The position numbers were made by a program, and so were the translations under genes. Below the pieces are notes generated by a model. The model had not been told where the DNA came from. It did no database searches and saw only the letters and a program-made list of their open reading frames with translations. A stretch of 64,000 nt of DNA. It comes from Streptomyces sp. T12 (lineage in GTDB: Bacteria > Actinomycetota > Actinomycetes > Streptomycetales > Streptomycetaceae). Positions 6,307-35,150 of this stretch are shown in pieces; position 1 is the stretch's first letter, and every line of letters starts with the position of its first letter. The stretch covers positions 8,907,001 to 8,971,000 of the forward strand of contig NZ_CP117866.1 in assembly GCF_028736035.1 (NCBI RefSeq), given 5' to 3'.

Positions 6307-6329
6307 ACCAGCTGAGCAAGGGAACCACC

Positions 6330-15182: not shown

Positions 15183-16286
15183 ATGAGCGGGCTTCGGATC
15201 ACACGCGGGCGGCTCGTCGACCTGGCCGTGGCGGTCGTGGTCGGCGTGATCGTCGTGCTCGCCGCCGTGGCGGACGGACGCGCCGGACCCGTCGACTGCG
15301 CGCTGATCGCGGTCGGTTCGCTGGCCCTGGCCGCGCACCGCACGGCTCCGCGCGTGGTGCTCGCGGTCACCACCGCCGGCCTGCTCGCCGCAGTCGTCCA
15401 CGCCGGGCCCGCGAGCAGCCTGGCCGTCCCCGTCGTGGGCGCGGTGCACACGGCGTCGCGGACCGGACACCGGGGCACGGCCGCGGCGGCCGCCGCCGTC
15501 TTCCTCGGCGGCTACGTGGCGGCGGGCTCGGCGGGCTCGGACGTCACGCGGGAGGCGCTGCTGCTCGCCGGCTGGTTCCTGTGCGCGGTGGTGACGGGCC
15601 TGGCCGACCGCAACTGGCAGGCGTATCTGCGCCAGACCGAGCAGCGCGCCCTGGAGGCCGAACGCACCCGGGAGGAGGCGGCGCTGCGCAGAGCGGGCGA
15701 GGAACGTCTGCGCATAGCACGGGAGTTGCACGACTCCCTCACCCACAGCATCTCGATCGTCAAGCTCCAGGCGGGCGTCGCCGTGCACCTGGCCCGCAAG
15801 CGTGGCGAGGAGGTGCCGCCCGCGCTGCTCGCCATCCAGGAGGCGAGCGGGGAGGCGATGCGGGAGCTGCGCGCCACGCTGGAGGTGCTGCGCACGGACG
15901 AGCCCACCGGCACGCCCGCGCTGCTCGTGGAGCGGGCGCGGGCGGCGGGTCTCGCGGTCGAACTGACGGTGACGGGGGAGGAGCGGCCGCTGGCGGCGAC
16001 GGTCGACCGGGCGATGTACCGCATCGTCCAGGAGGCCTTGACGAACGCGGCGCGGCACGCGGGCCCGGCGAAGGTGACCGTTCAACTCGGCTACAGCGAG
16101 GGCGAGTTGACGGTCCGTGTCGAGGACGACGGCACCGCCGACCCGGCCGTCCCGCCCACCCCCGGCATCGGTCTGACCGGCATGCGCGAACGCGTCACGG
16201 CCCTCGGCGGCACCCTGCACGCCGCCCCGCGCGCCGAGGGCGGATTCGCGGTGCGGGCACGGCTGCCGCTGGGGGAGACGGGATGA
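15183..16286 (+). CDS. NarL-type two-component sensor histidine kinase
   Basis: 367 residues. Seen: four to five hydrophobic membrane segments (about 10-150), a short coiled linker (QTEQRALEAERTREEAALRR), the HisKA_3 dimerisation motif RIARELHDSLTHSISIVKLQ with the phospho-accepting His at about residue 184, and a HATPase domain with N box IVQEALTNAARHAG (about 281-294) and G boxes VEDDGTADP and GIGLTGMRERV. No extracellular sensor domain is evident, so the signal is probably membrane-borne. It pairs with the response regulator at 16339. The two are separated only by a duplicated 23-nt stretch. Confidence 0.93.
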   Translation: MSGLRITRGRLVDLAVAVVVGVIVVLAAVADGRAGPVDCALIAVGSLALAAHRTAPRVVLAVTTAGLLAAVVHAGPASSLAVPVVGAVHTASRTGHRGTAAAAAAVFLGGYVAAGSAGSDVTREALLLAGWFLCAVVTGLADRNWQAYLRQTEQRALEAERTREEAALRRAGEERLRIARELHDSLTHSISIVKLQAGVAVHLARKRGEEVPPALLAIQEASGEAMRELRATLEVLRTDEPTGTPALLVERARAAGLAVELTVTGEERPLAATVDRAMYRIVQEALTNAARHAGPAKVTVQLGYSEGELTVRVEDDGTADPAVPPTPGIGLTGMRERVTALGGTLHAAPRAEGGFAVRARLPLGETG

Positions 16287-16287
16287 G

Positions 16288-16338
16288 GACGGGGCGACGG
16301 GGGCGGCGGGACAAGGACGGGGCGACGGGGGCGGCGGC
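16288..16338 (+). repeat. 23-nt perfect direct repeat between kinase and response regulator genes
   Basis: The 23-base segment 16288-16310 (beginning GGACGGGGCGACGGGG) recurs exactly at 16316-16338, separated by 5 bases. The second copy ends directly before the ATG of the response regulator and contributes its G-rich ribosome binding region. It looks like a recent tandem duplication that spaced two genes which were formerly closer. Confidence 0.7.
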
Positions 16339-17013
16339 ATGACGGATGACGTGATCAGGGTGGCGCTCGTCGACGACCAGGCGCTGATGCGGGCGGGATT
16401 CCGGGCCCTGCTGGACGCCGAGGACGGCATCGAGGTGGTCGGCGAGGCGGCGGACGGCGAGCGGGGCGTGGAACTGATCCGCGCGCAGGTCCCCGACATC
16501 GCGCTGATCGACGTACAGATGCCGGTGATGACGGGCATCGAGGCGACGCGCAGGATCGCCGCGGACCCGGCCCTGGCACCGGTCCGCGTGGTCATCCTGA
16601 CGAACTACGGCCACGACGAGTACGTCTTCGAGGCCCTGCGGGCCGGCGCCAGCGGCTTCCTGCTGAAGGACACCGAACCGGCCGACCTGCTCCAGGCGAT
16701 CGAAGTGGTGGCACGCGGCGAGGCGCTGCTGTCCCCGTCGGTGACCCGCACTCTGATCGGCGAGTTCGTCTCCCGCCCACCCGACCGGGCCACCGCGCCC
16801 GGCCTGGAGTGCCTGACGCGCCGCGAACGCGAGGTGACGGCTCTGGCGGCGCGGGGGCTGACGAACGAGGAGATCGCCGAGCACATGGTGATCAGCCCCT
16901 TCACGGCGAAGACCCACATCAGCAGGGCGATGACGAAGCTGGGGGCGCGGGATCGGGCGCAGTTGGTGGTGTTCGCCTATGAGTCGGGGCTGGTGACGGC
17001 GCGCGGGGCATAA
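16339..17013 (+). CDS. NarL/LuxR-family response regulator
   Basis: 224 residues. The receiver domain (1-120) keeps the acidic pair in VALVDDQALMRAGF, the phospho-acceptor Asp in DIALIDVQMPVMTG (about residue 55) and the conserved Lys in GASGFLLKD (about 106). The C-terminal LuxR-type HTH (about 155-220) reads LTRREREVTALAARGLTNEE and KTHISRAMTKLGARDRAQLV. It is thus a complete, phosphorylatable partner of the kinase at 15183. Regulated genes cannot be named. A likely target is its own divergent promoter region with the ACTACT/AGTAGT repeat. Confidence 0.93.
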   Translation: MTDDVIRVALVDDQALMRAGFRALLDAEDGIEVVGEAADGERGVELIRAQVPDIALIDVQMPVMTGIEATRRIAADPALAPVRVVILTNYGHDEYVFEALRAGASGFLLKDTEPADLLQAIEVVARGEALLSPSVTRTLIGEFVSRPPDRATAPGLECLTRREREVTALAARGLTNEEIAEHMVISPFTAKTHISRAMTKLGARDRAQLVVFAYESGLVTARGA

Positions 17014-21364: not shown

Positions 21365-22777
21365 ATGCTCGATGCGGTCGTGGTGGGTGCGGGGCCGAAC
21401 GGACTGACCGCTGCCGTGGAGCTGGCCCGGCGTGGCTTCTCCGTGGCCGTGTTCGAGGCGCGTGACACCGTCGGCGGGGGTGCCCGCACGGAAGAGCTGA
21501 CCCTGCCCGGCTTCCGGCACGACCCGTGCTCCGCCGCGCACCCCCTCGGCATCAACTCGCCCGTGTTCCGGACCATGCCGCTCGACCGCTACGGCCTTCA
21601 GTGGCTGCACGCCGAGCTGCCCATGGCGCACCCCTTCACCGACGGCACCGCCGCCGTGCTGTCCCGTTCCGTCGCCGAGACCGCCGCCTCCTTCGGCCCG
21701 CGCGACGCGGGGACGTACCGCAGGCTGGTCGAGCCGTTCCTGACCAAGTGGGACACGCTGGCCCGCGACTTCATGTCCCTGCCCCTCACCGCGCTGCCAC
21801 GCGACCCGGTCACCCTCGCCCGGTTCGGCCTCGTCGGGCTGCCCCCGTCCACATGGCTGATGCGCCGCTTCCGCGACGAGCGGGCCAAGGCCCTGTTCTC
21901 CGGCCTCGTCGCCCACGTCATCGCGCCGCTGGGCGGCTTCGCCACCAGCGCCATCGGTCTGGTCTTCGCCCTCGCCGCCCACGCCCGCGGCTGGCCCGTG
22001 GCCCGCGGCGGGTCCCAGTCCATCTCCGACGCCCTCACCGCCTATCTCGAGGACCTCGGCGGCGCCGTCCACACCGACTACGAGGTCAAGCGGCTCGACG
22101 ACCTGCCGCCCGCGCGCGCGTACATCTTCGACACCTCGCCGACCGCGCTGGCCCGTATCGCCGGGCTCGGCCGGTACTACGAGGGCTACCGCTACGGCGC
22201 CGCCGCATTCAAGATCGACTATGCATTGGACGGCCCGGTGCCGTGGACCGCGCCGGAGGCCCGGCGGGCCGGCACCGTGCAGATCGGCGGGGACAGCGCG
22301 GAGATCGGCGCCGCGCTGCGCGCCGCGTCCCGGGAGGGCCGGGCGCCCGACAAGCCGTTCATGATCACGGTGCAGCCCAGCGTCGTCGACCCCACCCGGG
22401 CTCCCGACGGCAAGCACGCCTTCTGGGCGTACGGGCATGTGCCGAACGGCTGGACCGGAGACCTCACGGACGCCATCGAACGCCAACTGGAGCGCTTCGC
22501 CCCGGGGTTCCGCGACCGCGTCCTCGCCCGCGCCACGGCCGGCCCGGCCGAACTCGCCGCCCGCAACGCCAACTACGTCGGCGGAGACATCGCCTCCGGC
22601 GCGGCCTCCGGACTCCAACTCCTGCTGCGCCCCAAGCTGTCGCTCTTCCCCTACACCACCCCGCACCCGGCGGTCTTCATCTGCTCGTCGGCCACCCCAC
22701 CCGGACCGGGCGTGCACGGCATGTCGGGGCACAACGCGGCCAAGGCGGTGTGGCGGCGGCTGCGTCAGGAGCCGTGA
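21365..22777 (+). CDS. FAD/NAD(P)-dependent oxidoreductase of the phytoene-desaturase/CrtI-like type
   Basis: 470 residues. Seen: the dinucleotide-binding motif [20 protein letters not shown] (residues 3-22) with the acidic strand end [16 protein letters not shown] (about 30-45), and the C-terminal FAD motif [20 protein letters not shown] (about 440-459). Known relatives include phytoene dehydrogenases and amine-oxidase-like enzymes; no carotenoid genes are nearby. ATG 21365 follows GAGG with an 8-base gap. A GTG at 21356 preceded by GAAGGGG is a possible longer start adding three residues. A 130-base gap with its own promoter signals separates it from the ebo operon. Confidence 0.85.
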
Positions 22778-22907: not shown

Positions 22908-24044
22908 ATGAAAGATCGGAAAGCGGTTGCCCGCTTCGGATCCCGGTCTGCCGTGCGCCTCGCCGACCTCGCCCTGCTCGTCAGAGCTCCGGCCGCGTTG
23001 AGTGTCCCCGGTGACGTGATCGCGGGAGCGGCCGCTGCCGGACGCCCGCTGGGCGCCCGCACCCTCGGAGTGATCGGTTCCTCCGTGTGCCTCTACTGGG
23101 CCGGCATGGCCCTGAACGACTACGCCGACGCCACGGTCGACTCCGTCGAGCGGCCCGAGCGACCGGTGCCCTCGGGGCGCGTTCCGCGCCGTACGGCGCT
23201 CGCCGTGGCCGGGTCGTTGACCGCGGCGGGGATCGGTCTCGCCGCCGCCGCGGGAGGTCGGCGCAGTGTGGGCACCGCGCTTCCATTGGCTGGGCTGGTC
23301 TGGGCGTATGACCTGAAGCTCAAGTCCACGCCGGTGGGCTCAGTCGCCATGGCGGGAGCCCGGGTTCTGGACGTCCTGGCCGGAGCGGTTGTGCCTGGGG
23401 TCGGTGCGGAGCCGGTCGGGGTTGCGCTGCGGCGTGCCGCGGTGCCTGCCGGGCTGGTCGGGGTGCATACCGGTACGTTGATGGCGCTCAGTCGGCATGA
23501 GATCGCCGGGGCGCCGGCGCGGGTTCCGGCTGCGACTCTTGCCGTGTCTGCGGCGACGGCGGTCGCGACGGCCCTTCCGGTCGCCCGAGTCGCCGCAGGA
23601 CGTGCCGCGAACGGCCGTCTGGCGTCTGCTGCGCCGATGTGGCTGGTCGCGCCCCGCGGCGGAGCCGCTGTTCGACACAGCCCCGCGCCCCTTGAGGGCG
23701 TTGGCGGCACCGCTCCTTCGAAGAAGCTCGGCATCGCCCTCACCGCGACCGCCCCGGCGAAATTCCGCACCGCCCTCACCGCCACCTCCCCGGCGAAGCT
23801 CCGCACCGCCCTTACCGCCGCCGGTGCTCTCGCCTACCTCGGTACCTACGGGGCCGCCCAAGTCCGTGCCGTACGGGAGCCGTCGGGGGAGAACCTGCGG
23901 CGGGCCGTAGGGGCCGGGATCCTTGGGCTGATGCCCCTGCAGGCGGCGCTGACCGCGCGTGGCGGGGCTGCGGGTGTCGCCGCGGCACTTGGCGTCGTCC
24001 ACCCCCTCGCGCGGCGGCTGGCCCGGCGCATATCGCCCACCTGA
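22908..24044 (+). CDS. eboC: UbiA-like prenyltransferase-fold membrane protein, EboC of the ebo cluster
   Basis: 378 residues, about eight to nine hydrophobic segments. Seen: a first Asp motif in ALNDYADATVDSVERPERPV (about 66-85) followed by PSGRVPRRTALAVAG, and a second motif WAYDLKLKSTPVGSVAMAGA (about 132-151), the two metal-diphosphate sites of UbiA proteins. Known: EboC homologues occur in the conserved ebo cluster, where their substrate is unknown. The operon continues with a TIM-barrel isomerase, EboA, EboB, EboE, EboF and P450. Odd: residues of about 240-305 form a low-complexity insert (APRGGAAVRHSPAP, then tandem ALTATAPAKFRT / ALTATSPAKLRT), which is encoded by a palindromic repeat element and a 36-nt tandem repeat. 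Confidence 0.85.
   Translation: MKDRKAVARFGSRSAVRLADLALLVRAPAALSVPGDVIAGAAAAGRPLGARTLGVIGSSVCLYWAGMALNDYADATVDSVERPERPVPSGRVPRRTALAVAGSLTAAGIGLAAAAGGRRSVGTALPLAGLVWAYDLKLKSTPVGSVAMAGARVLDVLAGAVVPGVGAEPVGVALRRAAVPAGLVGVHTGTLMALSRHEIAGAPARVPAATLAVSAATAVATALPVARVAAGRAANGRLASAAPMWLVAPRGGAAVRHSPAPLEGVGGTAPSKKLGIALTATAPAKFRTALTATSPAKLRTALTAAGALAYLGTYGAAQVRAVREPSGENLRRAVGAGILGLMPLQAALTARGGAAGVAAALGVVHPLARRLARRISPT
23637..23816 (+). repeat. Streptomyces palindromic repeat-like element plus 36-nt tandem repeat inside the eboC frame
   Basis: The stretch from about 23637 to 23700 (TGGCTGGTCGCGCCCCGCGG..., ...GCCCCGCGCCCCTTGAGGGC) strongly resembles the palindromic elements that recur between genes in Streptomyces chromosomes. 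Here it is read through in frame. It is followed by 36-nt units starting at 23736, 23772 and, partially, 23808, each encoding a 12-residue unit. Together they lengthen the protein in a loop between membrane segments. Confidence 0.6.
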
Positions 24045-24078
24045 GACCCACCACACCTCCGTGTGAGGAACCGGCACC

Positions 24079-24939
24079 ATGAGACCTCCCCCCACCGATC
24101 TCAAATTCGGCTACGGCACCAACGGCTTCACCCACCACCGGCTGACCGACGTCCTGGTCGTCCTCGCCGATCTCGGCTACGACGGCGTCGCCCTCACCCT
24201 CGACCACGGCCACCTCGACCCGTACGCCGACGATCTGCCCCGGCGCGTCACCGCCCTCGCCCGGCAACTCACGCGGCACGGGCTGGACGTGACGGTGGAG
24301 ACCGGCGCGCCGTACTTCCTCGACCCCTGGGGCAAGCACCTGCCCACGCTGATGTCGGACGGCTCCGAGGTCAGGGTCGACCTGCTGCGCCGCGCCCTGC
24401 GCATCGCGGCCGATCTCGGCTCGCCCACCGTCCACCTGTGCAGCGGCCCGGCGCCGGACGGGCTGCCGGAGCGGGACGCGTGGAAGCGGCTCGCGGCCGG
24501 GGTGGAGACCGTGCTGGAGACGGCGGAGGAGTACGGGGTGGCGCTGGCCTTCGAGCCGGAGCCGTACATGTTCGTCGACACCGTGGAGCGCTGCCTGCAC
24601 CTCGCCCAACTGGTCGACGGGCACGAGCTGTTCGGGATCACCCTGGACGTCGGCCACGCGCACTGCGTGGAGAGACGTTCCGTGCTCGACTGCGTGAGCC
24701 GGGCGGCACCGCTGCTGCGCAACGTGCAGATCGAGGACATGCGGCGCGGCATCCACCAGCACCTCGAATTCGGCGCGGGTGAGATCGACTTCCCGCCCGT
24801 ACTGGCCGCCTTGCGTGACCTCGGGCATCGCGGCCTGGTCTCCGTCGAGATCCAGGGCGGCTCGCTCGACGCGCCCGACGTGGCCCGTCGCTCGATCGAG
24901 TTCCTGCGTGCGGCCGTACAGACCGCGGCGCACCGATAG
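24079..24939 (+). CDS. Sugar-phosphate isomerase/epimerase-like TIM-barrel protein (ebo cluster)
   Basis: 286 residues of the xylose-isomerase-like TIM-barrel family (AP endonuclease 2 superfamily). Seen: KFGYGTNGFTHHRLTDVLVV at the start, strand motifs LAFEPEPYMFVD (about 157-168), ITLDVGHAHCVERR (about 190-203) with the expected metal Asp and His, QIEDMRRGIHQHLEFGAGEID (about 217-236) and VSVEIQGGS (about 254-262). The Glu/Asp/His/Glu metal set seems intact. ATG 24079 follows GTGAGGAACC. Known only as an ebo-type neighbour; substrate unknown. A second TIM barrel (EboE) occurs further down the operon. Confidence 0.85.
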   Translation: MRPPPTDLKFGYGTNGFTHHRLTDVLVVLADLGYDGVALTLDHGHLDPYADDLPRRVTALARQLTRHGLDVTVETGAPYFLDPWGKHLPTLMSDGSEVRVDLLRRALRIAADLGSPTVHLCSGPAPDGLPERDAWKRLAAGVETVLETAEEYGVALAFEPEPYMFVDTVERCLHLAQLVDGHELFGITLDVGHAHCVERRSVLDCVSRAAPLLRNVQIEDMRRGIHQHLEFGAGEIDFPPVLAALRDLGHRGLVSVEIQGGSLDAPDVARRSIEFLRAAVQTAAHR

Positions 24940-25001
24940 ACACCGCCCGGCCCTTTCCTGCCGGCTCGACTCCTCCCACATCTCCGGAAGTTGCTCCCCC
25001 C

Positions 25002-25679
25002 ATGGCTGTCACGACTGCCTCCCTCTCGGCTCCGCCGGACCCCCACCCCGCCCTGATCGCCGGCCTGGACCCCACGGCCCGCACCTGGCTGGACGACAGC
25101 GCCGCCGAGGTCACCGCCGAACCCGCCGCCGTACGACGGCTCTTCCCCGCCGCCCGAAGGCGCTGCGGGCACGGCCGCCTCGACGCGTACTGGACCGTCG
25201 ACGAGGCCGCCCGGGCCGTCCTGCTCACCGCACTGCCCCTGCGCGGCCAGGCCCTCGCCGACGAGGTCACCCGCCTCCACCGCCACGGCGACCCGGCGGA
25301 ACAACGCGCCGTCCTGCGCGCCCTGCCGCTGCTCGACCTGGCCGACCTCGCCCTGCCCCTCGTACGGGAAACCCTGCGCGGCAACGACACCAGCCTGATC
25401 GAGGCCGCCCTCGGCCCGTACGCCGCCGCGCACCTCCCGGACGCCGAGTACCGCCAGGCCGTACTGAAGTGCGTGTTCTGCGAGATCCCGCTGGACCGCG
25501 TCACCGGCCTCGACACCCGCGCCGACCGCGAACTGGCCCGTATGCTCGCCGACTTCGCCCATGAGCGGATCGTCGCGGGACGGGACGTACCCCAGGACAT
25601 CCTGCCCTTCGTCCGCGCCTTCCCGGACGTCGTCGGCGGCCGAGCAGAACTCCAGCACGCACTCAAGGAAGAGGGCTGA
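25002..25679 (+). CDS. eboA: EboA-domain protein
   Basis: 225 residues, mostly alpha-helical with HEAT-like pairs (ALPLRGQALADEVTRLHRHG, LPLLDLADLALPLVRETLRG). The landmark is YRQAVLKCVFCEIPLDRVTG (about 150-169), then RADRELARMLADFAHERIVA and a C-terminal RDVPQDILPFVRAFPDV, matching the EboA family that defines the ebo cluster. It is not an enzyme by any motif I can see. ATG 25002 lies 62 bases after the isomerase stop; the stop is 2 bases before the TatD-like gene. Known: EboA is required with the other Ebo proteins for export of scytonemin precursors in Nostoc; its biochemical role is undefined. Confidence 0.8.
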   Translation: MAVTTASLSAPPDPHPALIAGLDPTARTWLDDSAAEVTAEPAAVRRLFPAARRRCGHGRLDAYWTVDEAARAVLLTALPLRGQALADEVTRLHRHGDPAEQRAVLRALPLLDLADLALPLVRETLRGNDTSLIEAALGPYAAAHLPDAEYRQAVLKCVFCEIPLDRVTGLDTRADRELARMLADFAHERIVAGRDVPQDILPFVRAFPDVVGGRAELQHALKEEG

Positions 25680-25681
25680 CC

Positions 25682-26536
25682 GTGCGCATCTTCGACCCCC
25701 ATATCCACATGACCTCCCGCACGACCGACGACTACGAGGCGATGTACGCGGCCGGGGTGCGCGCCGTCGTCGAGCCCGCCTTCTGGCTAGGGCAGCCCCG
25801 CACCTCGCCCGAGAGCTTCTACGACTACTTCGACGGGCTGCTGGGCTGGGAGCCGTACCGCGCCGCCCAGTTCGGCATCCAGCACTTCTGCACCATCGCG
25901 CTCAACCCGAAGGAGGCGAACGACCCCCGCTGCCTCCCGGTCCTCGACGAACTGGACCGCTACCTCGCCAAGGACCGCGTCGTCGCCGTCGGCGAGATCG
26001 GCTACGACTCGATGACCCCCGAGGAGGACGAGGCGCTCGCGCGCCAGCTCCAGCTCGCCATCGAGCACGAGCTGCCCGCCCTCGTGCACACCCCGCACCG
26101 CGACAAGGCGGCCGGTACCCGCCGCACCCTGGACGTCGTACGGGAGTCGGGCATCGCCCCCGAACTGGTCGTCCTCGACCACCTCAACGAGCTCACCGTC
26201 GGCATGGTCCTGGACAGCGGCTGCTGGGCCGGGTTCTCGATCTACCCGAAGACCAAGATGAGCGAGGACCGGATGGTGGAGATCCTCAAGGAGCACGGGA
26301 CGGAGCGGGTGCTCGTCAACTCGGCTGCCGACTGGGGGCGTTCGGATCCACTGAAGACCCGTAAGACCGCCGACGCCATGCTCGCCGCCGGGTTCGACGA
26401 CGACGCCGTGGACGAGGTGCTGTGGCGCAACCCGGTCGCCTTCTACGGCCAGAGCGGGCGGCTGGAGCTGGAGGAGTCCAAGCCGGACGAGGAGGCCACC
26501 TTCCGGGGCAACTCCATACGTCGCGGGGGAGCGTGA
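25682..26536 (+). CDS. eboB: TatD-like metal-dependent hydrolase, EboB
   Basis: 284 residues of the amidohydrolase/TatD fold. Seen: the metal motif RIFDPHIHMTSR (residues 2-13), VAVGEIGYDSM (about 102-112) with the bridging Glu, LVHTPHRDKA (about 138-147), VLDHLNELT (about 162-170), and the last metal Asp in NSAADWGRSDP (about 217-227). All the usual ligands are present. GTG 25682 is the only start compatible with the N-terminal strand and follows the EboA stop by two bases. It belongs to the ebo operon; relatives in TatD nucleases act on DNA, but EboB substrates are unknown. Confidence 0.85.
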   Translation: MRIFDPHIHMTSRTTDDYEAMYAAGVRAVVEPAFWLGQPRTSPESFYDYFDGLLGWEPYRAAQFGIQHFCTIALNPKEANDPRCLPVLDELDRYLAKDRVVAVGEIGYDSMTPEEDEALARQLQLAIEHELPALVHTPHRDKAAGTRRTLDVVRESGIAPELVVLDHLNELTVGMVLDSGCWAGFSIYPKTKMSEDRMVEILKEHGTERVLVNSAADWGRSDPLKTRKTADAMLAAGFDDDAVDEVLWRNPVAFYGQSGRLELEESKPDEEATFRGNSIRRGGA

Positions 26537-26543
26537 ACATCCC

Positions 26544-27701
26544 ATGCGCTTTCTGCACCCGGACGGCACCACCGTCCACCTCGGCTACTGCAGCAACGTC
26601 CACCAGGCGGAGGACCTCCAGGGCGTGATCGCCCAGCTCGCCGACTACGCCGAGCCCGTGCGCGACCGGCTCGGGGTCGACCGGCTCGGCATCGGCCTGT
26701 GGCTGGCGCGCCCCGTCGTCACCGAACTCGCCGATGACGAGGGCGCGTTGACGCGTCTGAAGACCGAACTGCGGGCGCGCGGCCTGGAGACCGTCACCCT
26801 CAACGCCTTCCCGTACGCCGGGTTCCACCGCGAGGTCGTCAAGAAGGACGTGTACGAACCCGACTGGGCCGACGAGGCCCGGCTGAAGTACACCCTGGAC
26901 TGCGCCCGCGTCCTCGCCGCCCTCCTCCCGGACGACGTCGACCGCGGAAGCGTCTCCACGCTGCCGCTCGCGTGGCGCACCCCGTGGACTCCCGCCTGTG
27001 CCGAGGAGGCCCGGCACGCCGTGGACCGGCTGGCCACCGGGCTCGCCGCGCTGGAGGCGTGGACGGGTCGCCGTATCCGCGTCGGGTTCGAGCCGGAACC
27101 CGGGTGCGTCGTCGAGACCACCACGCAGGCGGTGCGGGAACTGGGCGGGCTGGACTCCGACCGGCTCGGCATCTGCCTCGACGCGTGCCATCTCGCCGTC
27201 CAGTTCGAGGACCCTGCCGAGGCCCTGCGGCGGCTCTCGGAAGCCGGGATGCCCGTGGTCAAACTCCAGGCGTCCTGCGCCGTGGAGGCCGCGAACCCGG
27301 CCGCCCCCGCCGCCCGCGCGGCCCTGCACCGGCTCGCCGAACCCCGGTTCCTGCACCAGACCCGGACGACGAGCGACGGTGACGTCCTCGGCGTGGACGA
27401 CCTCCCGGACGCCCTCGACGGCGACCTTCCCGCCGACGGCGGCCCCTGGCGCGTCCACTTCCACGCCCCGCTGCACACCGAGCCCGAACCTCCGCTGCGT
27501 ACGACGGCCGGCCAGCTCGACCAGGTCCTCGCCGGGCTGCTGGGCGGGGCCTCGGCCCACTGCGACCACATCGAGGTCGAGACCTACACCTGGTCCGTCC
27601 TCCCCGAACCGCCCGCCGACCTGCCCGGCGGCATCGCCGCCGAACTCGCCTGGGCCCGCGACCGGTTGACCGGCCTCGGCCTCAAGGAGGACCCGTCATG
27701 A
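26544..27701 (+). CDS. eboE: EboE, xylose-isomerase-like TIM-barrel protein
   Basis: 385 residues, the length expected for EboE. Seen: N-terminal MRFLHPDGTTVHLGYCSNVH, characteristic of the family; RIRVGFEPEPGCVVET (about 174-189), LGICLDACHLAVQFED (about 209-224), and the C-terminal SAHCDHIEVETYTWSVLP (about 336-353). The Glu/Asp/His residues of the TIM-barrel metal site recur in these strands. The 3' end overlaps the next gene by four bases (ATGA). Annotated in databases as metabolite traffic protein EboE on the basis of cyanobacterial work; the reaction is unknown. Confidence 0.85.
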   Translation: MRFLHPDGTTVHLGYCSNVHQAEDLQGVIAQLADYAEPVRDRLGVDRLGIGLWLARPVVTELADDEGALTRLKTELRARGLETVTLNAFPYAGFHREVVKKDVYEPDWADEARLKYTLDCARVLAALLPDDVDRGSVSTLPLAWRTPWTPACAEEARHAVDRLATGLAALEAWTGRRIRVGFEPEPGCVVETTTQAVRELGGLDSDRLGICLDACHLAVQFEDPAEALRRLSEAGMPVVKLQASCAVEAANPAAPAARAALHRLAEPRFLHQTRTTSDGDVLGVDDLPDALDGDLPADGGPWRVHFHAPLHTEPEPPLRTTAGQLDQVLAGLLGGASAHCDHIEVETYTWSVLPEPPADLPGGIAAELAWARDRLTGLGLKEDPS

Positions 27702-29128
27702 CGACCGACCCATCGAACCGCGTTGTCGTCCTCGACATCGTCGGCCTCACCCCGAACCTTCTGCGGCATATGCCGGCCGTCGCCGCCCTCGGCGACCGCG
27801 GCTTCCGGGCCCGGCTCGACACCGTGCTGCCCGCCGTGACCTGCACCGTCCAGTCCACCCTCCTCACCGGCGAACCCCCGTCCACGCACGGCGCGGTGGC
27901 GAACGGCTGGTACTTCCGCGACCTCGGCGAAGTCATGCTGTGGCGCCAGCACAACGCCCTCGTCGGCGGCGAGAAGATCTGGGAGACGGCCCGGAAGGCC
28001 AAGCCCGACTACAAGGTCGCCAACATCTGCTGGTGGTACGCGATGGGCGCCGACGTCGACTGGACGGTCACCCCGCGCCCCGTCTACTACTCCGACGGCC
28101 GCAAGGAACCCGACTGCTACACCTGGCCGCCCTCCCTGCACGACGAACTCACCGACCGGCTGGGCCCGTTCCCCCTCTTCACCTACTGGGGCCCGAACGC
28201 CGGCATGCCCTCCACCCAGTGGATCCTGGCCGCTTCCCGGCAGATCTTCGACGAACACCGCCCCGACCTCACGCTCGTCTACATCCCGCAGATGGACTAC
28301 GAGCCCCAGCGCTCCGGCCCGGACTCACCGGAAACCCTCCGCGCCGCACGCCAACTCGACCACGCCCTGCGCCCGTTGATCGACCACTTCCTGAGCGAGG
28401 GAGCCACCGTCGTCGCGCTCAGCGAGTACGGCATCACGCCCGTCTCCCGCCCGGTCGACATCAACCGCGCCCTGCGCCGGGCAGGGCTGCTGGAGGTCTA
28501 CACACAGGACGGCATGGAGTACCTCGACCCGTGGACGTCACGCGCCTTTGCGGTCGCCGACCACCAGGTCGCCCACGTGTACGTCCGCGACCCGGCCGAC
28601 GTCGACACGGTCGCCAAGCTCGTCGCCGAACTCGACGGCGTGGAGCAGGTGCTGGACGCCGACGGCAAGTCCGCCCACGGCCTGGACCACGAGCGCTCCG
28701 GCGAACTCGTCGCACTCGCCGACCCCGACGCCTGGTTCACGTACTACTACTGGCTGGACGACGAGCGCGCCCCCGACTTCGCCCGCCAGGTCGAGATCCA
28801 CCGCAAGCCCGGCTACGACCCCGCCGAGCTCCTCTACGACGAGGCCGTCCCCGCGGTGAAGCTGCGCGCCGTCGGCCAGGTGGCCCGCAAGAAGCTCGGC
28901 TTCCGCTACCGCCTCAAGACCGTCCCCCTCGACCCCTCCGGCGTCCGCGGCAGCCACGGCCGCCTGCCCGCCGACCCCGACCACGGCCCCGTACTGCTGT
29001 GTTCGCAGCCCTCGCCGGAGTCGGCACCGGCGAAGGAGGCGTACGCGGCCACCGAGGTCAAGTCCCTGCTGCTGGGCCTCGCGGGCCTGCACGAGACGCC
29101 CGACGCAATGGAAGGCACGGAGAAGTGA
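27698..29128 (+). CDS. eboF: Alkaline-phosphatase-superfamily phosphodiesterase (nucleotide pyrophosphatase type), EboF-like
   Basis: 476 residues. Seen: N-terminal VVVLDIVGLTPNLLRHMPAV with the first metal Asp (about residue 14), the Thr nucleophile in PAVTCTVQSTLLTG (about 47-60), STHGAVANGWYFRD (about 64-77), IPQMDYEPQRSGP (about 196-208) with a metal Asp, and SEYGITPVSRPVDINRALR (about 244-262). This is the type I phosphodiesterase/nucleotide pyrophosphatase arrangement. No signal peptide is visible, so it appears cytoplasmic. It starts inside the EboE stop (ATGA) and ends inside the P450 start (GTGA), which ties it tightly to both. Confidence 0.85.
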   Translation: MTTDPSNRVVVLDIVGLTPNLLRHMPAVAALGDRGFRARLDTVLPAVTCTVQSTLLTGEPPSTHGAVANGWYFRDLGEVMLWRQHNALVGGEKIWETARKAKPDYKVANICWWYAMGADVDWTVTPRPVYYSDGRKEPDCYTWPPSLHDELTDRLGPFPLFTYWGPNAGMPSTQWILAASRQIFDEHRPDLTLVYIPQMDYEPQRSGPDSPETLRAARQLDHALRPLIDHFLSEGATVVALSEYGITPVSRPVDINRALRRAGLLEVYTQDGMEYLDPWTSRAFAVADHQVAHVYVRDPADVDTVAKLVAELDGVEQVLDADGKSAHGLDHERSGELVALADPDAWFTYYYWLDDERAPDFARQVEIHRKPGYDPAELLYDEAVPAVKLRAVGQVARKKLGFRYRLKTVPLDPSGVRGSHGRLPADPDHGPVLLCSQPSPESAPAKEAYAATEVKSLLLGLAGLHETPDAMEGTEK

Positions 29129-30312
29129 CGACCCACCCGCCCCTGCCCACGATCCGCCCGCTGCTCGACCCGGCCCCCGAGTACGCCAAGTGGCAGTCCG
29201 AGGAGCCGATCCGCCGGGTGACGATCTGGGGCGACAACAGCCCCTGGCTGATCACCGGTTACGAGGACGCCCGTACGGTGCTCGCCGACCCCCGCTTCAG
29301 CGCGGACGCCAATCACCCCGACTTCCCCCACACTCGCCCCGGAGCACCGCCGCAAGCTCCCGGCCTCTTCCACCAGATGGACCCGCCGGACCACACCCGG
29401 CTGCGCCGCATGCTGATCCCCGACTTCACCTTCCGGCGCATCGAGCAGATGGAAGGTGCCGTACAGCGGATCTGCGACGACCTGCTGGACGCGATGACGG
29501 ACGGCGACGCGACGCAGGCGGACCTGGTCGCGTCGTACGCACTGCCCCTGCCCACCCTCGCCATCTGCGAACTGCTCGGTGTTCCCTACGAGGACCACGG
29601 CTTCTTCCGCGCGAAGTCCAACGCCCTCACCAGCGTCGCCGGCGACCCGGCCGAGGCGATGTCGGCCCGCATGGCGCTCTACGGCTATCTGCGCGCCCTC
29701 ATCGAGCGCCGTACGCACGACCCCGCCGACGACCTCGTCTCCCGCCTGGCCACCGAGCGCGTCGCGACCGGCGAGGCCACGCTCGACGAGGCCACGGGCA
29801 TGGTCTCCCTGCTCCTGCTGGCGGGTCACGAGACCACGGCGAACATGTTCCCGCTGGCCGTGATCGCCCTGCTGCAGAACCCGGCCCAACTGGACGCACT
29901 GCGGGCCGACGGCTCCCTGTGGCCGGGGGCGGTGGAGGAACTCCTGCGCCATCTGACCGTCATCCACTCCGGGATACGCCGGGTCGCCACGGAGGACGTC
30001 GACCTGTCCGGCGTCCGTATCCGCGCGGGGGAGGGCGTGGTGGTGGCGTTGCAGGCCGCCAACCGCGACCCGTCCGTGTACGCCGCCCCCGACGCCCTCG
30101 ACGTCCGCCGCGACGCCGGCGGCCACCTCGCCTTCGGACACGGACTGCACCAGTGCCTCGGCCAGTCGCTGGCCCGCACCGAACTCCGCCTGGGCCTGTC
30201 CACCCTGTTCCGCAGGCTCCCGTCCCTGCGCGTGACGGCCCCGCTCGATTCGCTGGCCCTGTCGGCCAGCACGGTCCACGGGGTGCGCTCGTTGCCGGTC
30301 GCCTGGAAATAA
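29125..30312 (+). CDS. Cytochrome P450 at the end of the ebo operon
   Basis: 395 residues, soluble bacterial type. Seen: the I-helix LLLLAGHETTANMF (about 229-242), K-helix EELLRHLTVIHSGIRR with the ExxR pair (about 271-286), the haem-binding loop HLAFGHGLHQCLGQSLARTE (about 333-352) with the axial Cys in HQCLG, and MDPPDHTRLRRML in the C-helix (about 87-99). All catalytic signatures are intact. GTG 29125 overlaps the EboF stop (GTGA), implying cotranslation with the ebo genes. Ferredoxin and reductase partners are not encoded nearby. Its presence suggests that the ebo-linked metabolite is oxidised; the substrate is unknown. Confidence 0.93.
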   Translation: MTTHPPLPTIRPLLDPAPEYAKWQSEEPIRRVTIWGDNSPWLITGYEDARTVLADPRFSADANHPDFPHTRPGAPPQAPGLFHQMDPPDHTRLRRMLIPDFTFRRIEQMEGAVQRICDDLLDAMTDGDATQADLVASYALPLPTLAICELLGVPYEDHGFFRAKSNALTSVAGDPAEAMSARMALYGYLRALIERRTHDPADDLVSRLATERVATGEATLDEATGMVSLLLLAGHETTANMFPLAVIALLQNPAQLDALRADGSLWPGAVEELLRHLTVIHSGIRRVATEDVDLSGVRIRAGEGVVVALQAANRDPSVYAAPDALDVRRDAGGHLAFGHGLHQCLGQSLARTELRLGLSTLFRRLPSLRVTAPLDSLALSASTVHGVRSLPVAWK

Positions 30313-30349: not shown

Positions 30350-30859
30350 ATGACCACCATCAGGCTCGTTCAGGGCGACATCACGCGAGAGAGCGCCGAC
30401 GCGATCGTCAACGCCGCGAACTCCTCCCTCCTGGGCGGGGGAGGAGTCGACGGCGCGATCCACCGCCGCGGTGGCCCCGCGATCCTCGACGAGTGCCGCA
30501 AGCTGCGCGCTTCCCAGTACGGCAAGGGCCTGCCCACCGGGCAGGCGGTCGCCACGACGGCCGGGGAGCTGGACGCGCGGTACGTGATCCACACGGTGGG
30601 CCCGGTCTGGTCGTCCACCGAGGACCGCTCGCAGCTGCTGTCCTCCTGCTACCGGGAGTCGCTGCGCGTGGCCGACGAACTGGGCGCCAGGACGGTCGCG
30701 TTCCCGGCGATCTCCACCGGCGTCTACGGCTGGCCGATCGACGACGGTGCCCGGATCGCAGTGGAGACGGTGCGGGCGGCGGACACGGCGGTCGAGGAGG
30801 TCCGGTTCGTGCTCTTCGACGAGCGGGCGTACGAGGCGTTCGCCGGGCACGTGCGCTGA
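30350..30859 (+). CDS. Macrodomain ADP-ribose-binding protein (O-acetyl-ADP-ribose deacetylase type)
   Basis: 169 residues, a single macrodomain. Seen: IRLVQGDITRESADAIVNAA with the adenine Asp and the Asn of the catalytic NAAN motif (about 4-27), LLGGGGVDGAIHRRGG (about 29-44), and the phosphate loop FPAISTGVYGWPID (about 118-131). This MacroD/YmdB-type set is expected to hydrolyse O-acetyl-ADP-ribose or mono-ADP-ribosyl esters. ATG 30350 follows TATAGA by 7 bases, so the mRNA may be leaderless. It sits between the P450 and the lanthipeptide regulator with no obvious link to either. Sir2, Nudix and ADP-ribosylglycohydrolase genes occur 13-17 kb downstream. Confidence 0.9.
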   Translation: MTTIRLVQGDITRESADAIVNAANSSLLGGGGVDGAIHRRGGPAILDECRKLRASQYGKGLPTGQAVATTAGELDARYVIHTVGPVWSSTEDRSQLLSSCYRESLRVADELGARTVAFPAISTGVYGWPIDDGARIAVETVRAADTAVEEVRFVLFDERAYEAFAGHVR

Positions 30860-30959
30860 TCGCGGAGCGGCCGGATAATTGGCTCCGAAGGCGTCTGGAG
30901 AGTGCGGCACGCAGGGTGAGGTGTCTCGGCAGGCCGCGTAGCGCCAGGTGGGAGCGACA

Positions 30960-31565
30960 TTGATCCGCGTGCTTCTGATCGGGAAAGCCCGCCTCATGAG
31001 GGGAGCGGTCGCCGCCCTCCTGTCTCGCGAAGAGGACATCGAAGTCGTCGCCGAAGTCGAAGGCAACGGGCAGGTGATCGCGCGGGCACTGATGTGCCGC
31101 CCCGACGTGTTGGTGATCGACGTCGACTCCAAGGAGGGCGAGGAACTCGCCGCGCACCGTGAGCTGAGGGTGCGGCTGCCGGACTGCCGGATGCTGCTGC
31201 TGATGGCCTCGACGACACCCGAGCGGCTCCGCCGCATCCTCGACCTGCACGCTGCCGGGGTCATCAGCACGAACGCGCCGGCGGACCGCTTGGTCCACGG
31301 CGTCCGCAAGCTGGTCAGGGGGCAGCGGTTCATCGACCCCGAGTTCGCACTGGTCGCGCTCGACGCCGGAGAGAACCCGCTGACCCCGCGGGACGTGGAA
31401 ATCCTGAGAATGACCGCCGACGGCACGCCCACCCGTGAGATCGCCGAGCGGTTGTCCCTGTCCGTGGCCACGGTCCGCAACCATCTGTCGGCGATCACCA
31501 GGAAGACGGGCGGACGTAATCGGATCGACGCGATCCGCATCGCCAGGGAGTCGGGCTGGGTGTGA
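30960..31565 (+). CDS. amfR: Atypical NarL-family response regulator of the lanthipeptide locus (AmfR/RamR)
   Basis: 201 residues from TTG 30960, chosen because GGGAG ends 6 bases upstream (a GTG at 30948 has none). The C-terminal LuxR HTH is intact (LTPRDVEILRMTADGTPTRE then SVATVRNHLSAITRKTGGRN, about 141-185). The receiver is degenerate: where active receivers have an acidic pair after IRVLLV, this reads IRVLLIGKAR, and the conserved Lys motif is replaced by AAGVISTN; only the Asp in VLVIDVDS remains. Known: RamR/AmfR activates the amf/ram operon in an unphosphorylated or atypical manner. It is convergent with the exporter genes, 25 bases from stop to stop. GATAAT at 30874-30879 is a possible -10. 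Confidence 0.85.
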   Translation: MIRVLLIGKARLMRGAVAALLSREEDIEVVAEVEGNGQVIARALMCRPDVLVIDVDSKEGEELAAHRELRVRLPDCRMLLLMASTTPERLRRILDLHAAGVISTNAPADRLVHGVRKLVRGQRFIDPEFALVALDAGENPLTPRDVEILRMTADGTPTREIAERLSLSVATVRNHLSAITRKTGGRNRIDAIRIARESGWV

Positions 31566-31590: not shown

Positions 31591-33429
31591 TCAAAGGTGA
31601 GCGGTGAGCCGCAGGAGGACACGGACGGCATCCCGTACCCGTCCCGCACGTGTCATCGCTCCGACCGTCGGCGCAGAGGCGTTCGCGGCGCCCCAGTGGC
31701 CGACCAGGTCACGGTAGAGAGCGGAGTCGGCGAGCAACTCCTCGTGGGTGCCGAGGGCGACCCGCGTACCGTCCATGACGAGGATCCGGTCGGCCCGCAG
31801 TGCCGAACTGATGCGGTGGGCGACTACGACCAGGGTGCCCGGGCGGCGGGCGAAGGCCTCCTCGGCGACCGCTTCGGCGACCGGATCGAGATGACAGGTG
31901 GCCTCGTCCAGCAGGGCCAGTCGTGGTGCCGGGAGCAAGGCGCGGGCCAGGGCGACGAGCTGGCGCTCCCCGGCCGAGAGGTCTCGCGGGTCCACCGGCG
32001 CGTCGTAGCCGCCCAGCCGCTCCACGAGCGGTGCCGCGCCCACGGCACGGACCGCCGCCTGCACGTGCGCCGGGGCGGCGCCCGGTACCAGGTAGGTGAG
32101 GTTCTCCTCCAGGGTGCCGGCGAAGACGTACGCCTCCTGCGGGATCAGCACGCGGTGCCGGGCCAGGTCGTCGCCGCCCCCCAGCGCGAGGACCGGCGCG
32201 TCGTCGAGGCGCACCTGCCCCGCCCGCGGTTCGAGCACCCCCGCGAGCAGCGCGGCGAGGGTGGACTTCCCGGCGCCGCTCGGTCCCACCACGGCGAGGT
32301 GCTCGCCCGGGCGCAGGACGAGGTCCAGGTCGCGGATCACCGGCTCCGCGGACTGTGCGTAACCGAAGGTGAGACCGCGGGCCTCCACGCGTGCACCACC
32401 GGGCCGTACCGGACTACGCCCCGTCGCCGCGCCGGTCCCCGCTTCGGCGTCCTCGGGTGCCGTCGCCTCGGGTTCGTCGGGCTTCACCGCGATCTCGGCC
32501 ATCCGGCCGACGGTGACCAGGAGCCACAGCCCGCTGCTGCCAAGCCCCTGGACAAAGCCCTGCAGGGCGGGCTGGAGGGCCTGCGACACATAGGTCACCG
32601 CCCCCAGGATCGCCCCCGTCGTCACCCCGCTCCGCACCAGCCAGGGCGCCGCGATCAGGATCAGCAGGAGGGGCACCCAGCCGCTGATGCCCAGAGCGGC
32701 GGTCCGTACCGCGGTGAGCCGCGCCAGCGACACGGTCGCCCGGGCCGCGGCGTCGACCTGCCCACCCGTCTCGGCGCGTACGCGGTCCTCGGCGCCGCAG
32801 GCCACCACGTCCCGCAGCCCGCCGCTCAGGGCGCTCGCGGACTCGGCGATGCGCTCGTCCGCCAGGATGACCTCCCGCTGTCGTGCGGCCATCGCCCGCA
32901 GTGCCGCGGCGAACAGGGCGAGGCCGATCAGGAGCGGCGGCACGACGAGGGCGAGCAGCACCGGGTCGAGGCCGGCCAGACCCAGCAGCACGCCCCCGGC
33001 GGTGACCAGGAAGCCCTGGACGAACAGCACGATCGCGCCGTAGGCGTCGCGGGCCCGCTCCACATGCTCGGTGAGCCGGGCCACGCCCGCGGTGTCGGCC
33101 GGCTCGCCCAGCCGGGCGGACCGGTGCAGCGTGCCCGTGGTCACGAGCGTGACCAGCTCGTCCCGGAACGGTTCGATGAGTGAGGCCAGTCCCTGCACGG
33201 CGTGCCGGGTGCCCCAGGCTCCGACGAGGAAGGCGCCCGCCAGCGCGCCCAGCCAGAGGAAGCCGATGCCGGGCCGGTCGGCCAGGAACCCGCGGTCGAC
33301 GGCGCGGGCCACGATCCACCCGGAGAGAAAGGCGGGCGCGGCCTGCACCAGTGACCAGGCCACGAGTCGGCGGTATTCCCGACGCCGACGACTGAGCGAG
33401 GAGCGCAGGATCTGCACGGACCGCCGCAT
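31591..33429 (-). CDS. amfA: ABC exporter subunit with canonical ATPase site (lanthipeptide export)
   Basis: 612 residues: a six-helix exporter domain (about 1-300) fused to an ATPase domain (about 355-590). Seen: Walker A VVGPSGAGKSTLAALL, signature LSAGERQLVALARALL, Walker B with catalytic Glu LALLDEATCHLD and switch His in VVVAHRISSALRAD. ATG 33429 shares its A with the TGA of the upstream exporter gene (TGATG), so the two subunits are translated together and should form a heterodimer. It is expected to export the mature class III lanthipeptide. The symbol A/B assignment between the two subunits is by gene order only. Confidence 0.85.
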   Translation of the reverse strand: MRRSVQILRSSLSRRRREYRRLVAWSLVQAAPAFLSGWIVARAVDRGFLADRPGIGFLWLGALAGAFLVGAWGTRHAVQGLASLIEPFRDELVTLVTTGTLHRSARLGEPADTAGVARLTEHVERARDAYGAIVLFVQGFLVTAGGVLLGLAGLDPVLLALVVPPLLIGLALFAAALRAMAARQREVILADERIAESASALSGGLRDVVACGAEDRVRAETGGQVDAAARATVSLARLTAVRTAALGISGWVPLLLILIAAPWLVRSGVTTGAILGAVTYVSQALQPALQGFVQGLGSSGLWLLVTVGRMAEIAVKPDEPEATAPEDAEAGTGAATGRSPVRPGGARVEARGLTFGYAQSAEPVIRDLDLVLRPGEHLAVVGPSGAGKSTLAALLAGVLEPRAGQVRLDDAPVLALGGGDDLARHRVLIPQEAYVFAGTLEENLTYLVPGAAPAHVQAAVRAVGAAPLVERLGGYDAPVDPRDLSAGERQLVALARALLPAPRLALLDEATCHLDPVAEAVAEEAFARRPGTLVVVAHRISSALRADRILVMDGTRVALGTHEELLADSALYRDLVGHWGAANASAPTVGAMTRAGRVRDAVRVLLRLTAHL

Positions 33430-35150
33430 CACCGTGCGCCCCCCACCATCTCGGCGGCGGCAAGGCTGAACGGCTGGAACGTGGCACGGTACTCGGGATC
33501 CGCCCACAGCGCCCGATGCGGTCCCCGCCCCCGGACCGCGCCGTCGGCCAGCCAGACCACGATGTCCGCCCGTGCCGCCATGGAGGCCCGGTGCGCCACG
33601 ACGATCCGCGTGCGGGCGGCGAGCGCACTGGTCAGGACCTGGCTGATGTGGTGCTCGGTCACGGTGTCCAGGCTGGCGGCCACGTCGTCGAGCACGAGCA
33701 CCCGCCCGGCCTGGACGAACGCGCGGGCCAGCCCGACCCGCTGCGCCTCGCCGCCGGAGATCGGGGTGTCGGCGACGCGGCTCGCGTATCCGGCGGGCAT
33801 GTGGCGGATGAACGCGTCGGCACGGGCCGCCCTGGCCTGCGCCACGAGTACCTCGGCAGAGGGCATCCGCGGGCCGAACCCGATGGCGTCGGCGAAGGTC
33901 TCGCCGAGCAGCACCGGGCGTTCGAAGCCGTACGCCACCGCCTGCCTGAGCTCCTCGCGGCCGAGGCTGCGCAGCGGCACGCCGTCGAGCAGCACCTCAC
34001 CCTCGTCCGGGTCGACGAGACGCCCCGCCAGCGCGGCCAGCAGCGACTTGCCGGCCCCGGACCGGCCCACGACGGCGACGAGGGCGCCGCCCGGGACGAT
34101 CAGGCTGAGGTCCTGGAGCACGGGGCCGTCCGTCCCCTGAACGGTCACGTGCCGGAACTCCAGCCTTCCGGGGCCTTCGGCAAGGCGCTTCCGGCCGTAC
34201 GCCACGGGTGGTTCGGCGATCACCTCGGCGATCCGCCCCGCTGTCGTACGGGCCTGGGCCAGCTGGCTCAGCGACGACAGCACGCCGCCGATGCCGGCCG
34301 CCATGACCACGTACTCGCTCGCCGCGAGCACGTCGCCGGGCGTGATCCGGCCCTGGGTGAGCCCCAGTCCGGCCACTGCCAGGACGGCGACCACCAGCAG
34401 GGGGACGACCAGTTCGCCGCGCGCCGAGATCCGCGCGATCGCGTCCCACGCGCTCAGTCCGTGCCGACGCAGCTCGGGAAGGGGCGCGAGGACACGGCGC
34501 GCCTCGCGGTCGACGGTCCGGGCCGCGGTGATCGTCCGGATTCCGCCCAGGGCATCGACGAGCCGTGCGGCGATGGTGCCCTGCACGCGGAAGTAGCCCT
34601 CGTTGGCGTCGGAGATGTCGCGGAGGAAGGCCCGCACCAGGAGCACCACGATCGGCATCCCGGCCAGGAAGGTGAGACACAGCCAGTAGTCGATGAACGC
34701 CAGGGCGACGATCGCGCCGAGCGGAGGGACCAGGCCCATGACGACCCACACCAGGCCCGACGCGCTGTTCCCGGTCCGGGCGGCGTTGCCGACCAGACGA
34801 CTGACCAGGTCGCCCGGCGTGAACCTGCGGGTGGCCCGGGTGCCCAGCGCCAGCACGTGCCCCAGCAGTGTGTGCCGCAGCCAGGCGGTCGACCGGGCCT
34901 CGGCGATCTGCCCGACGAGATCGTCCACGGCGTCGACGGCCACCAGGACGAAGATCAGCACTCCGGTGAAAGCGAGCCAGCGCGCCGAGTCGCCCCCACT
35001 GAGGACGGCGTCAAGGGTGCGGCCCATGACGGCCGGCAGTGCGAGTCCGGCGCCGGTGAGCAGCAACGAGGTGACCACCGTGACGCCCACCCAGACACCG
35101 CCCCGCCGGGCTGACGCCAGCAGAAGGCGGTCCGCCGCGCCAAGGCTCAT
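33429..35150 (-). CDS. amfB: ABC exporter subunit with degenerate ATPase site (lanthipeptide export)
   Basis: 573 residues: transmembrane domain (about 15-310, with motifs FTPGDLVSRLVGNAARTG) and ATPase domain (about 330-560). Seen: Walker A VVGRSGAGKSLLAALAG, signature PISGGEAQRVGLARAFV, but Walker B ends LVLDDVAASLD, so the catalytic Glu is replaced by Asp; the switch His remains in VVAHRASMAARADI. Such asymmetry is characteristic of heterodimeric exporters in which only one ATP site hydrolyses. ATG 35150 follows GGGAGGTG. It lies 117 bases downstream of the precursor peptide gene and directly upstream of the partner subunit. Confidence 0.85.
   Translation of the reverse strand: MSLGAADRLLLASARRGGVWVGVTVVTSLLLTGAGLALPAVMGRTLDAVLSGGDSARWLAFTGVLIFVLVAVDAVDDLVGQIAEARSTAWLRHTLLGHVLALGTRATRRFTPGDLVSRLVGNAARTGNSASGLVWVVMGLVPPLGAIVALAFIDYWLCLTFLAGMPIVVLLVRAFLRDISDANEGYFRVQGTIAARLVDALGGIRTITAARTVDREARRVLAPLPELRRHGLSAWDAIARISARGELVVPLLVVAVLAVAGLGLTQGRITPGDVLAASEYVVMAAGIGGVLSSLSQLAQARTTAGRIAEVIAEPPVAYGRKRLAEGPGRLEFRHVTVQGTDGPVLQDLSLIVPGGALVAVVGRSGAGKSLLAALAGRLVDPDEGEVLLDGVPLRSLGREELRQAVAYGFERPVLLGETFADAIGFGPRMPSAEVLVAQARAARADAFIRHMPAGYASRVADTPISGGEAQRVGLARAFVQAGRVLVLDDVAASLDTVTEHHISQVLTSALAARTRIVVAHRASMAARADIVVWLADGAVRGRGPHRALWADPEYRATFQPFSLAAAEMVGGAR

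Follow-up and report, generated by a model that had tools for sequence, protein, structure and literature searches.

The ebo operon (eboA-F) is known from eustigmatophyte plastids and bacteria (PMC5133447 and, in the part available to us, PMC6282210), and the ebo cluster has been reported from cyanobacteria, other bacteria and plastids. An isoprenoid-cyclitol product was proposed for it by Yurchenko et al. (PMC5133447, section 3.7), in a paper that also mentions EboA-TIM hybrid proteins for Actinobacteria and whose main text contains neither 'inositol' nor 'P450'. In Nostoc punctiforme, according to the available portion of PMC6282210, the five ebo deletions made hold the scytonemin monomer in the cytoplasm. 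For Streptomyces coelicolor, the accessible part of PMC3610822 lists SCO3242 and SCO3243 in a transcript table as the transferase and the inositol-phosphate synthase (MIPS) of the CDA cluster. The SCO3242 prenyltransferase family has already been named by NCBI, and an arrangement with MIPS is visible in plasmid annotations; our literature search found no account of a MIPS replacement or a P450 variant of ebo, and no named ebo product. Here we describe the ebo-type cluster at 22908-30312 of a 64,000-nucleotide stretch (the window) of the 11.46 Mb genome of Streptomyces sp. T12 (contig NZ_CP117866.1, 8907001-8971000), which falls into a lineage of ebo clusters referred to below as type II.

The absence of MIPS, the presence of a cytochrome P450 and a changed stretch in a TIM-barrel protein are what sets this lineage apart from the related type I clusters. 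With roughly even confidence, we read the type II cluster as a cyclase-free, P450-bearing branch of the actinobacterial ebo pathway, which would likely make a prenylated polyol- or cyclitol-type metabolite at the membrane, with its head group switched. Seven open reading frames (ORFs) make up the cluster:

22908..24044, + strand, EboC-type UbiA prenyltransferase (SCO3242 family), 378 amino acids; PF01040 58 bits, NF045897 339 bits (cut-off 260)
24079..24939, + strand, xylose-isomerase-like TIM barrel (isomerase/epimerase-like), 286 amino acids; PF01261 136 bits
25002..25679, + strand, EboA, 225 amino acids; NF035938 169 bits (cut-off 50)
25682..26536, + strand, EboB, TatD-like metal-dependent hydrolase, 284 amino acids; PF01026 55 bits (cut-off 27)
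26544..27701, + strand, EboE, TIM-barrel protein, 385 amino acids; NF035939 429 bits (cut-off 250)
27698..29128, + strand, EboF, type I phosphodiesterase / nucleotide pyrophosphatase-like, 476 amino acids; PF01663 207 bits (cut-off 23)
29125..30312, + strand, cytochrome P450, 395 amino acids, GTG start; PF00067 98 bits

The ORF calls coincide exactly with the extent given by the first-pass annotation, and the family-model matches bear out its naming of EboA, EboB, EboE, EboF and the P450. The overlaps of GTGA/ATGA type that it described were found at two of the six junctions, eboE/eboF (ATGA) and eboF/P450 (GTGA), each of four bases, whereas the remaining four junctions are gaps of 34, 62, 2 and 7 bases, in gene order; the P450, which it called fused to the cluster, is a separate protein that adjoins EboF. 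A sigma-70-type promoter or terminator was looked for at the operon, and none was found.

To place the cluster among its relatives, a single scan of GTDB genomes was made with the window EboE, from which 80 loci were kept of 225 relatives; loci with at least 75% EboE identity to the window were assigned to type II (36 loci) and the rest to type I (44). The closest named locus is that of Streptomyces cyaneus, with 95% EboE identity. Type I clusters, such as the second ebo cluster of the same genome (L006) and that of a Streptomyces camelliae plasmid (L009), share the order UbiA-TIM-EboA-EboB-EboE-EboF, and the window proteins are 45-77% identical to those of L006 over the aligned stretches. However, type I clusters begin with MIPS, lack the P450 and carry ELxRHxH in the TIM barrel, whereas type II clusters have no MIPS and carry EIQxxxL. 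A FastTree tree of EboB, EboE and EboF was built from 79 loci and the window, leaving out L025, L047, L049, L050, L054 and L091, in which genes are missing. Type II together with locus L063 was supported at 1.0, and type II without it at 0.48; the MIPS-bearing loci L046 and L051 join next (support 0.99). L063, counted under type I, is thus placed as the nearest type II relative; it has no P450, its TIM barrel reads EIQDGSA, and its contig begins too late to show the MIPS position. A further MIPS cluster, in genome G117, is 50-75% identical over the aligned ebo proteins and has the type I TIM motif. Among 199 genomes of the genus, EboE was matched in 137 (134 over the cut-off) and type II eboF (at least 80% identity) was found in 15.

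EboD is indeed missing from the cluster, as first noted: tblastn with two EboD queries (E <= 1e-3) gave no match in the window or in loci L006-L092, a search that, for L013-L092, reached no further than 10 kb on each side of eboE. Nor does EboD seem to be encoded elsewhere in the genome, the sole 3-dehydroquinate synthase of which is most likely aroB, since the neighbouring ORF resembles a shikimate kinase by eye and the synthase itself shares 33-36% identity with the two EboDs over 217-272 residues. The first-pass annotation had treated the loss of EboD and the extra TIM barrel as setting the cluster apart; neither does so, as EboD was not found in the actinobacterial loci examined, and actinobacterial clusters, in which MIPS heads the operon, usually include the TIM barrel. 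Outside the Actinobacteria, the clusters of Azospirillum, Deinococcus, Ketogulonicigenium and Roseivivax have an annotated 3-dehydroquinate synthase adjoining eboE or a few genes before it; no inositol synthase is annotated in the stretches read of these four, and one of them, that of Ketogulonicigenium, has an isomerase-like gene alongside.

The window EboE matched 48 plasmid records, 29 of them from Streptomyces, and all four Streptomyces plasmid clusters read run from inositol-3-phosphate synthase through a SCO3242-family UbiA, an isomerase, EboA, TatD and EboE to a phosphodiesterase/alkaline-phosphatase-family protein. An inositol-phosphate synthase is also encoded twice elsewhere in the T12 genome: one MIPS heads the second ebo cluster (L006, type I), approximately 200 kb from the window cluster, and the other lies at 5.30 Mb, outside the ebo clusters. 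Archaeoglobus Ino1 was the best match of the L006 MIPS-like protein (199 bits), and the lysine replaced by alanine in the mutant entry 3qvw is retained. Against the mycothiol INO1 model the protein reached 28 bits, far short of the cut-off of 638, and its relatives include a five-membered-cyclitol-phosphate synthase (45 bits). Across the survey, MIPS was present in none of the 29 type II loci whose sequence reaches 6 kb or more upstream of eboE versus 32 of 35 type I loci, the exceptions being L047, L069 and L091. As L048, L049 and L054 have MIPS with no TIM match, the pairing of MIPS with the TIM barrel is not strict. A type I cluster is also present in most type II genomes, but type I is common across the genus.

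Several further observations were made on type I and related loci. In two Streptomyces plasmid clusters, a gene annotated as ScyD/ScyE-family, a family named after scytonemin genes, lies directly upstream of MIPS (L009:2221-3423 and L010:2207-3406). On the flanks of L006 lie further TIM-barrel genes and a gene for a ThuA / 3-keto-disaccharide hydrolase protein (L006:1997-2995, 5636-7024 and 15385-16461), a setting that suggests sugar metabolism around that cluster. Partial clusters were found by tblastn with the window proteins among Herbidospora (L049, L054) and Sphaerisporangium (L047), either as MIPS-EboA-EboB-EboE without prenyltransferase, TIM barrel and EboF or as prenyltransferase-EboE-EboF alone.

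Of all the cluster proteins, the TIM barrel holds the most sites that distinguish the two types. Type-specific columns, defined as at least 90% uniform within each type and differing between types, number 13 (of 276) in this protein, compared with seven in EboF, four each in EboA and EboE, three in EboB and two in UbiA, and five of the 13 lie within residues 258-263, immediately after E257. Residues E159, D190, Q217 and E257, which we take to be the metal ligands of this family, are kept in all 76 sequences. For residues 257-263, 42 of 43 type I rows have ELxRHxH and 32 of 33 type II rows have EIQ. The odd type I row is L063, and the odd type II row, L086, comes from the neighbouring type I gene. 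The window carries EIQGGSL, and the type I ELxRHxH is not present. The loss of an arginine and two histidines beside the presumed metal site would be expected to accompany a change in a charged group of the substrate. The proposed distinct small-molecule pathway is partly supported, in that a changed TIM barrel would fit it; two of the features on which the proposal had leaned, the loss of EboD and the extra TIM barrel, do not mark the cluster out.

The P450 belongs to the same unit. Matches were counted from 300 aligned residues and 50% identity upwards, and type II loci were assessable where 2.5 kb or more follows eboF; on this basis, a P450 comes right after eboF in 23 of 33 type II loci, including L018, the match of which begins at residue 68 and may be damaged but was counted as full. 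The outcome that the first-pass annotation had named as refuting, absence of the P450 from most orthologous clusters, was therefore not seen within the lineage, although none of the 42 assessable type I clusters has the P450. In a tree, the 36 ebo-linked P450 rows (some genomes having entered through two tools, and the window twice) separate from 18 others with a support of 0.999, and P450 distances follow ebo distances (Mantel r 0.88, with 0 of 2000 permutations as high, n=23 loci). A start overlapping eboF by four bases is possible in 16 of the 23 P450 loci. Five residues, E237, T238, E272, R275 and C344, are at least 98% conserved in 21 ebo-linked P450s; presumably E272/R275 form the ExxR motif, C344 is the haem cysteine and E237/T238 are the acid-alcohol pair. 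Among the 199 genus genomes, the P450 (E <= 1e-120) occurs in 12, all among the 15 with type II eboF, and lies within 0.5 kb of eboF in 11 of the 12, the copy of G063 being at a contig edge. In those 15 genomes, ebo P450s are 58-100% identical to the window P450 and other P450s at most 51% (E <= 1e-60); G107, G139 and G176, which have type II eboF and no ebo P450, hold no P450 above 48% identity to that of the window. At least some of the absences are losses, as shown by an internally deleted P450 in L042 and a remnant of 21 residues in L025. The early branch formed by L033, L039 and L045 has no P450 (nor, in L039 and L045, MIPS where upstream DNA is covered), so the P450 may have been gained after this branch split off. 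On these grounds, the P450 is read as a tailoring enzyme, probably one that is often kept and sometimes lost. Its closest solved structure is P450-SU1 (335 bits), which we take to be CYP105A1, and pentalenic acid synthase is among the next matches (322 bits); compared with such Streptomyces P450s, the ebo P450s form a separate group.

The prenyltransferase had been labelled EboC, here taken as a putative assignment: the protein is of the UbiA family and has motifs in common with the UbiA proteins encoded in the Azospirillum and Deinococcus ebo clusters, but it missed the EboC model (96 bits, cut-off 250) and passed that of the SCO3242 family. It has the first Asp-rich motif and a UbiA fold, with the model fold nearest 4od5 and 6m31, and its ND-x2-D-x3-D motif at 70-78, Y134 and E198 are invariant in 33 sequences. 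Archaeal digeranylgeranylglyceryl phosphate (DGGGP) synthase (6m31) is its best PDB sequence-profile match and among its top fold matches, but on the family model of that synthase the protein falls far below the curated cut-off (53 vs 296 bits). A variable loop spans approximately residues 225-300, and the predicted local distance difference test score (pLDDT) of the model is below 50 at residues 235-277, just before and into a tandem repeat. This 36-base repeat is present in 2.8 copies at 23723-23823 and in 6.6 copies in S. cyaneus (L013:7037-7275).

Of the remaining proteins, EboA did not reach the stricter EboA_family model (90 bits vs 320); its model is all-helical and solenoid-like (pLDDT 94), with weak fold matches. 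EboB matched none of the Ebo-specific models; it has an HxH at residues 7-9, and H7, H9, E105, H136, H167 and D217 are at least 98% conserved across types I and II. The ratio of nonsynonymous to synonymous substitution rates (dN/dS) was 0.02-0.51 over all seven genes, with up to eight comparisons per gene: 0.02-0.18 for EboB, 0.17-0.31 for the prenyltransferase and 0.12-0.41 (seven comparisons) for the P450, which by this measure is under purifying selection.

Based on these family assignments, a pathway can be proposed, the order of its steps being our inference. A head group derived from a sugar or cyclitol and drawn from general metabolism would be isomerised or epimerised by the TIM barrel and EboE, and the EboC-type enzyme would attach a prenyl chain to it, in the way that the related archaeal DGGGP synthase prenylates glycerol phosphate. 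EboF and EboB may hydrolyse a phosphate ester or other bonds, EboA may act as a helical scaffold, and the P450 would oxidise the product, probably on its lipophilic prenyl part, as a late step that the pathway can do without. In type I, the cyclitol phosphate would be supplied by the MIPS-like enzyme, and the MIPS gene there provides independent support for a cyclitol in Actinobacteria. The head group of type II is probably different from that of type I, because type II lacks both the MIPS gene and, in its TIM barrel, the RHxH stretch.

Several points weigh against this reading as a whole. Three control clades (6-10 TIM sequences) have one, zero and zero private TIM-barrel sites, but type II is the larger group and may have a longer stem, which makes the other proteins of the same clusters the better yardstick for the TIM-barrel excess; the L046 and L051 group, with one TIM sequence and eight private TIM sites, was not counted as a control. 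The role given to the EIQxxxL/ELxRHxH stretch, and with it the putative change of substrate, is read from sequence. The P450 is missing from 10 of the 33 assessable type II loci and is therefore not essential. As far as the available parts of the two reports go, the ebo prenyltransferase activity reported in vitro is the farnesylation of quinoline acids, by the UbiA-297 enzymes of Maribacter, Zobellia and Algoriphagus, with no cyclitol (PMC9235831), and the Nostoc ebo genes are tied to movement of the scytonemin precursor into the periplasm (PMC6282210); thus, neither the acceptor nor the role should be taken as settled. In addition, a high-scoring, housekeeping-like MIPS is present in all 15 type II genomes, and inositol phosphate is therefore available to them.

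This last point leads to the strongest alternative, somewhat unlikely in our view, that inositol phosphate remains the starting material of type II, with the housekeeping-like MIPS or a type I cluster providing it in trans, that the lack of a clustered MIPS reflects redundancy, and that the type II product is a P450-oxidised form of the type I product. It is favoured by the universal presence of MIPS in these genomes, with a second copy in 13 of the 15, and by the conserved polar residues that the downstream ebo enzymes retain. However, the RHxH beside E257 is gone in all type II rows except the one that is a neighbouring type I gene, and G014 and G068 have only the one housekeeping-like MIPS. 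A requirement of type II for the type I MIPS is ruled out by these two genomes, in which that enzyme is dispensable, although supply by the housekeeping-like copy is unaffected.

An alternative that we consider improbable is that the ebo proteins move or modify a metabolite for export, as proposed for the Nostoc scytonemin monomer, so that there is no free product and the P450 acts on the cargo. The Nostoc deletions described above (PMC6282210, in the part available) are consistent with it, as are the ScyD/ScyE-family genes just upstream of MIPS in two plasmid type I clusters. On the other hand, MIPS, the isomerase and the phosphodiesterase resemble metabolic enzymes, and the transport effect could stem from losing a prenylated compound made by the cluster. 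It is very improbable that the P450 is a bystander that happens to come after eboF: its absence from some type II loci would be explained, but not that a single P450 group tracks the ebo distances with a possible four-base overlap in 16 of 23 loci, stays with the cluster at other chromosomal sites and has no close non-ebo relative in the 15 genomes (best 51% vs at least 58%). Least credible of all is a reading of type II as a duplicate of type I in decay, since the missing MIPS, the P450 broken or missing in several strains and the repeat growth in the prenyltransferase loop stand against low dN/dS over seven genes, four TIM ligand columns kept throughout and a type II eboF in 15 of 199 genomes.

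The two genes that border the cluster, both outside the pathway, are as follows:

21365..22777, + strand, FAD oxidoreductase, left flank; found in 194 of 199 genus genomes
30350..30859, + strand, macro-domain gene, right flank; PF01661, empty-site comparison

The FAD oxidoreductase, 130 bases upstream on the same strand, was considered as a pathway member and rejected, being near-universal. Among 30 loci with this gene, the macro gene follows within approximately 260 bases in 22, an ebo insert lies between the two in seven, and one ends at a contig edge. In G068 and G079 the FAD-macro site is empty and type II with the P450 lies elsewhere; in G068 and G124 the seven genes are in the same order, with no MIPS in approximately 4 kb upstream. 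The cluster therefore occupies more than one site as a unit of approximately 7.4 kb that includes the P450. Downstream of the macro gene are a LuxR-type regulator (30948-31565, + strand) and an ABC-transporter-domain protein (31591-33507, - strand). A mixed arrangement was seen in Streptomyces sp. uw30 (L086, 4274-13992), in which type I and type II genes are interleaved on one contig, with two matches each for EboA, EboB, EboE and EboF; this reflects either real recombination or misassembly. L086 and G063 are very likely one genome, as their coordinates agree, and the G063 P450 begins at residue 83, at the edge of another contig (G063:C78).

The occurrence of both types in one genome is a natural comparison, with the same prenyltransferase family, a different head-group step and an extra oxidation, and such paired clusters make the question of the ebo product testable in ordinary Streptomyces strains. 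More tentatively, and with rather less than even confidence, ebo may be a modular system in which the maker of the head group is swapped: EboD in the clusters described first, a MIPS-like enzyme (usually with a TIM isomerase) in Actinobacteria, and in type II neither cyclase but a re-targeted TIM barrel, with a P450 decorating the prenylated product. In that case, type II would make a new oxidised prenyl-polyol unlike the type I product of the same cell. The MIPS-headed operon of Actinobacteria itself points to an inositol-type cyclitol head group.

Compared with the systems described so far, the prenyltransferase, a putative EboC protein, is comparable with the UbiA-297 enzymes of PMC9235831, which, as far as the available part of that report goes, are EboC members inside ebo clusters. 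The same part of the report describes its clusters, including that of Saccharomonospora, as eboA-E with EboD, whereas the Saccharomonospora locus in our survey (L059) has MIPS and no EboD match. Like the eboA-F operon (PMC5133447 and the available part of PMC6282210), the window cluster encodes EboA, EboB, EboE, EboF and an EboC-type UbiA protein on one strand; unlike it, the cluster has no EboD (sugar phosphate cyclase) and carries an extra TIM barrel, a prenyltransferase of the SCO3242 family and a terminal P450.

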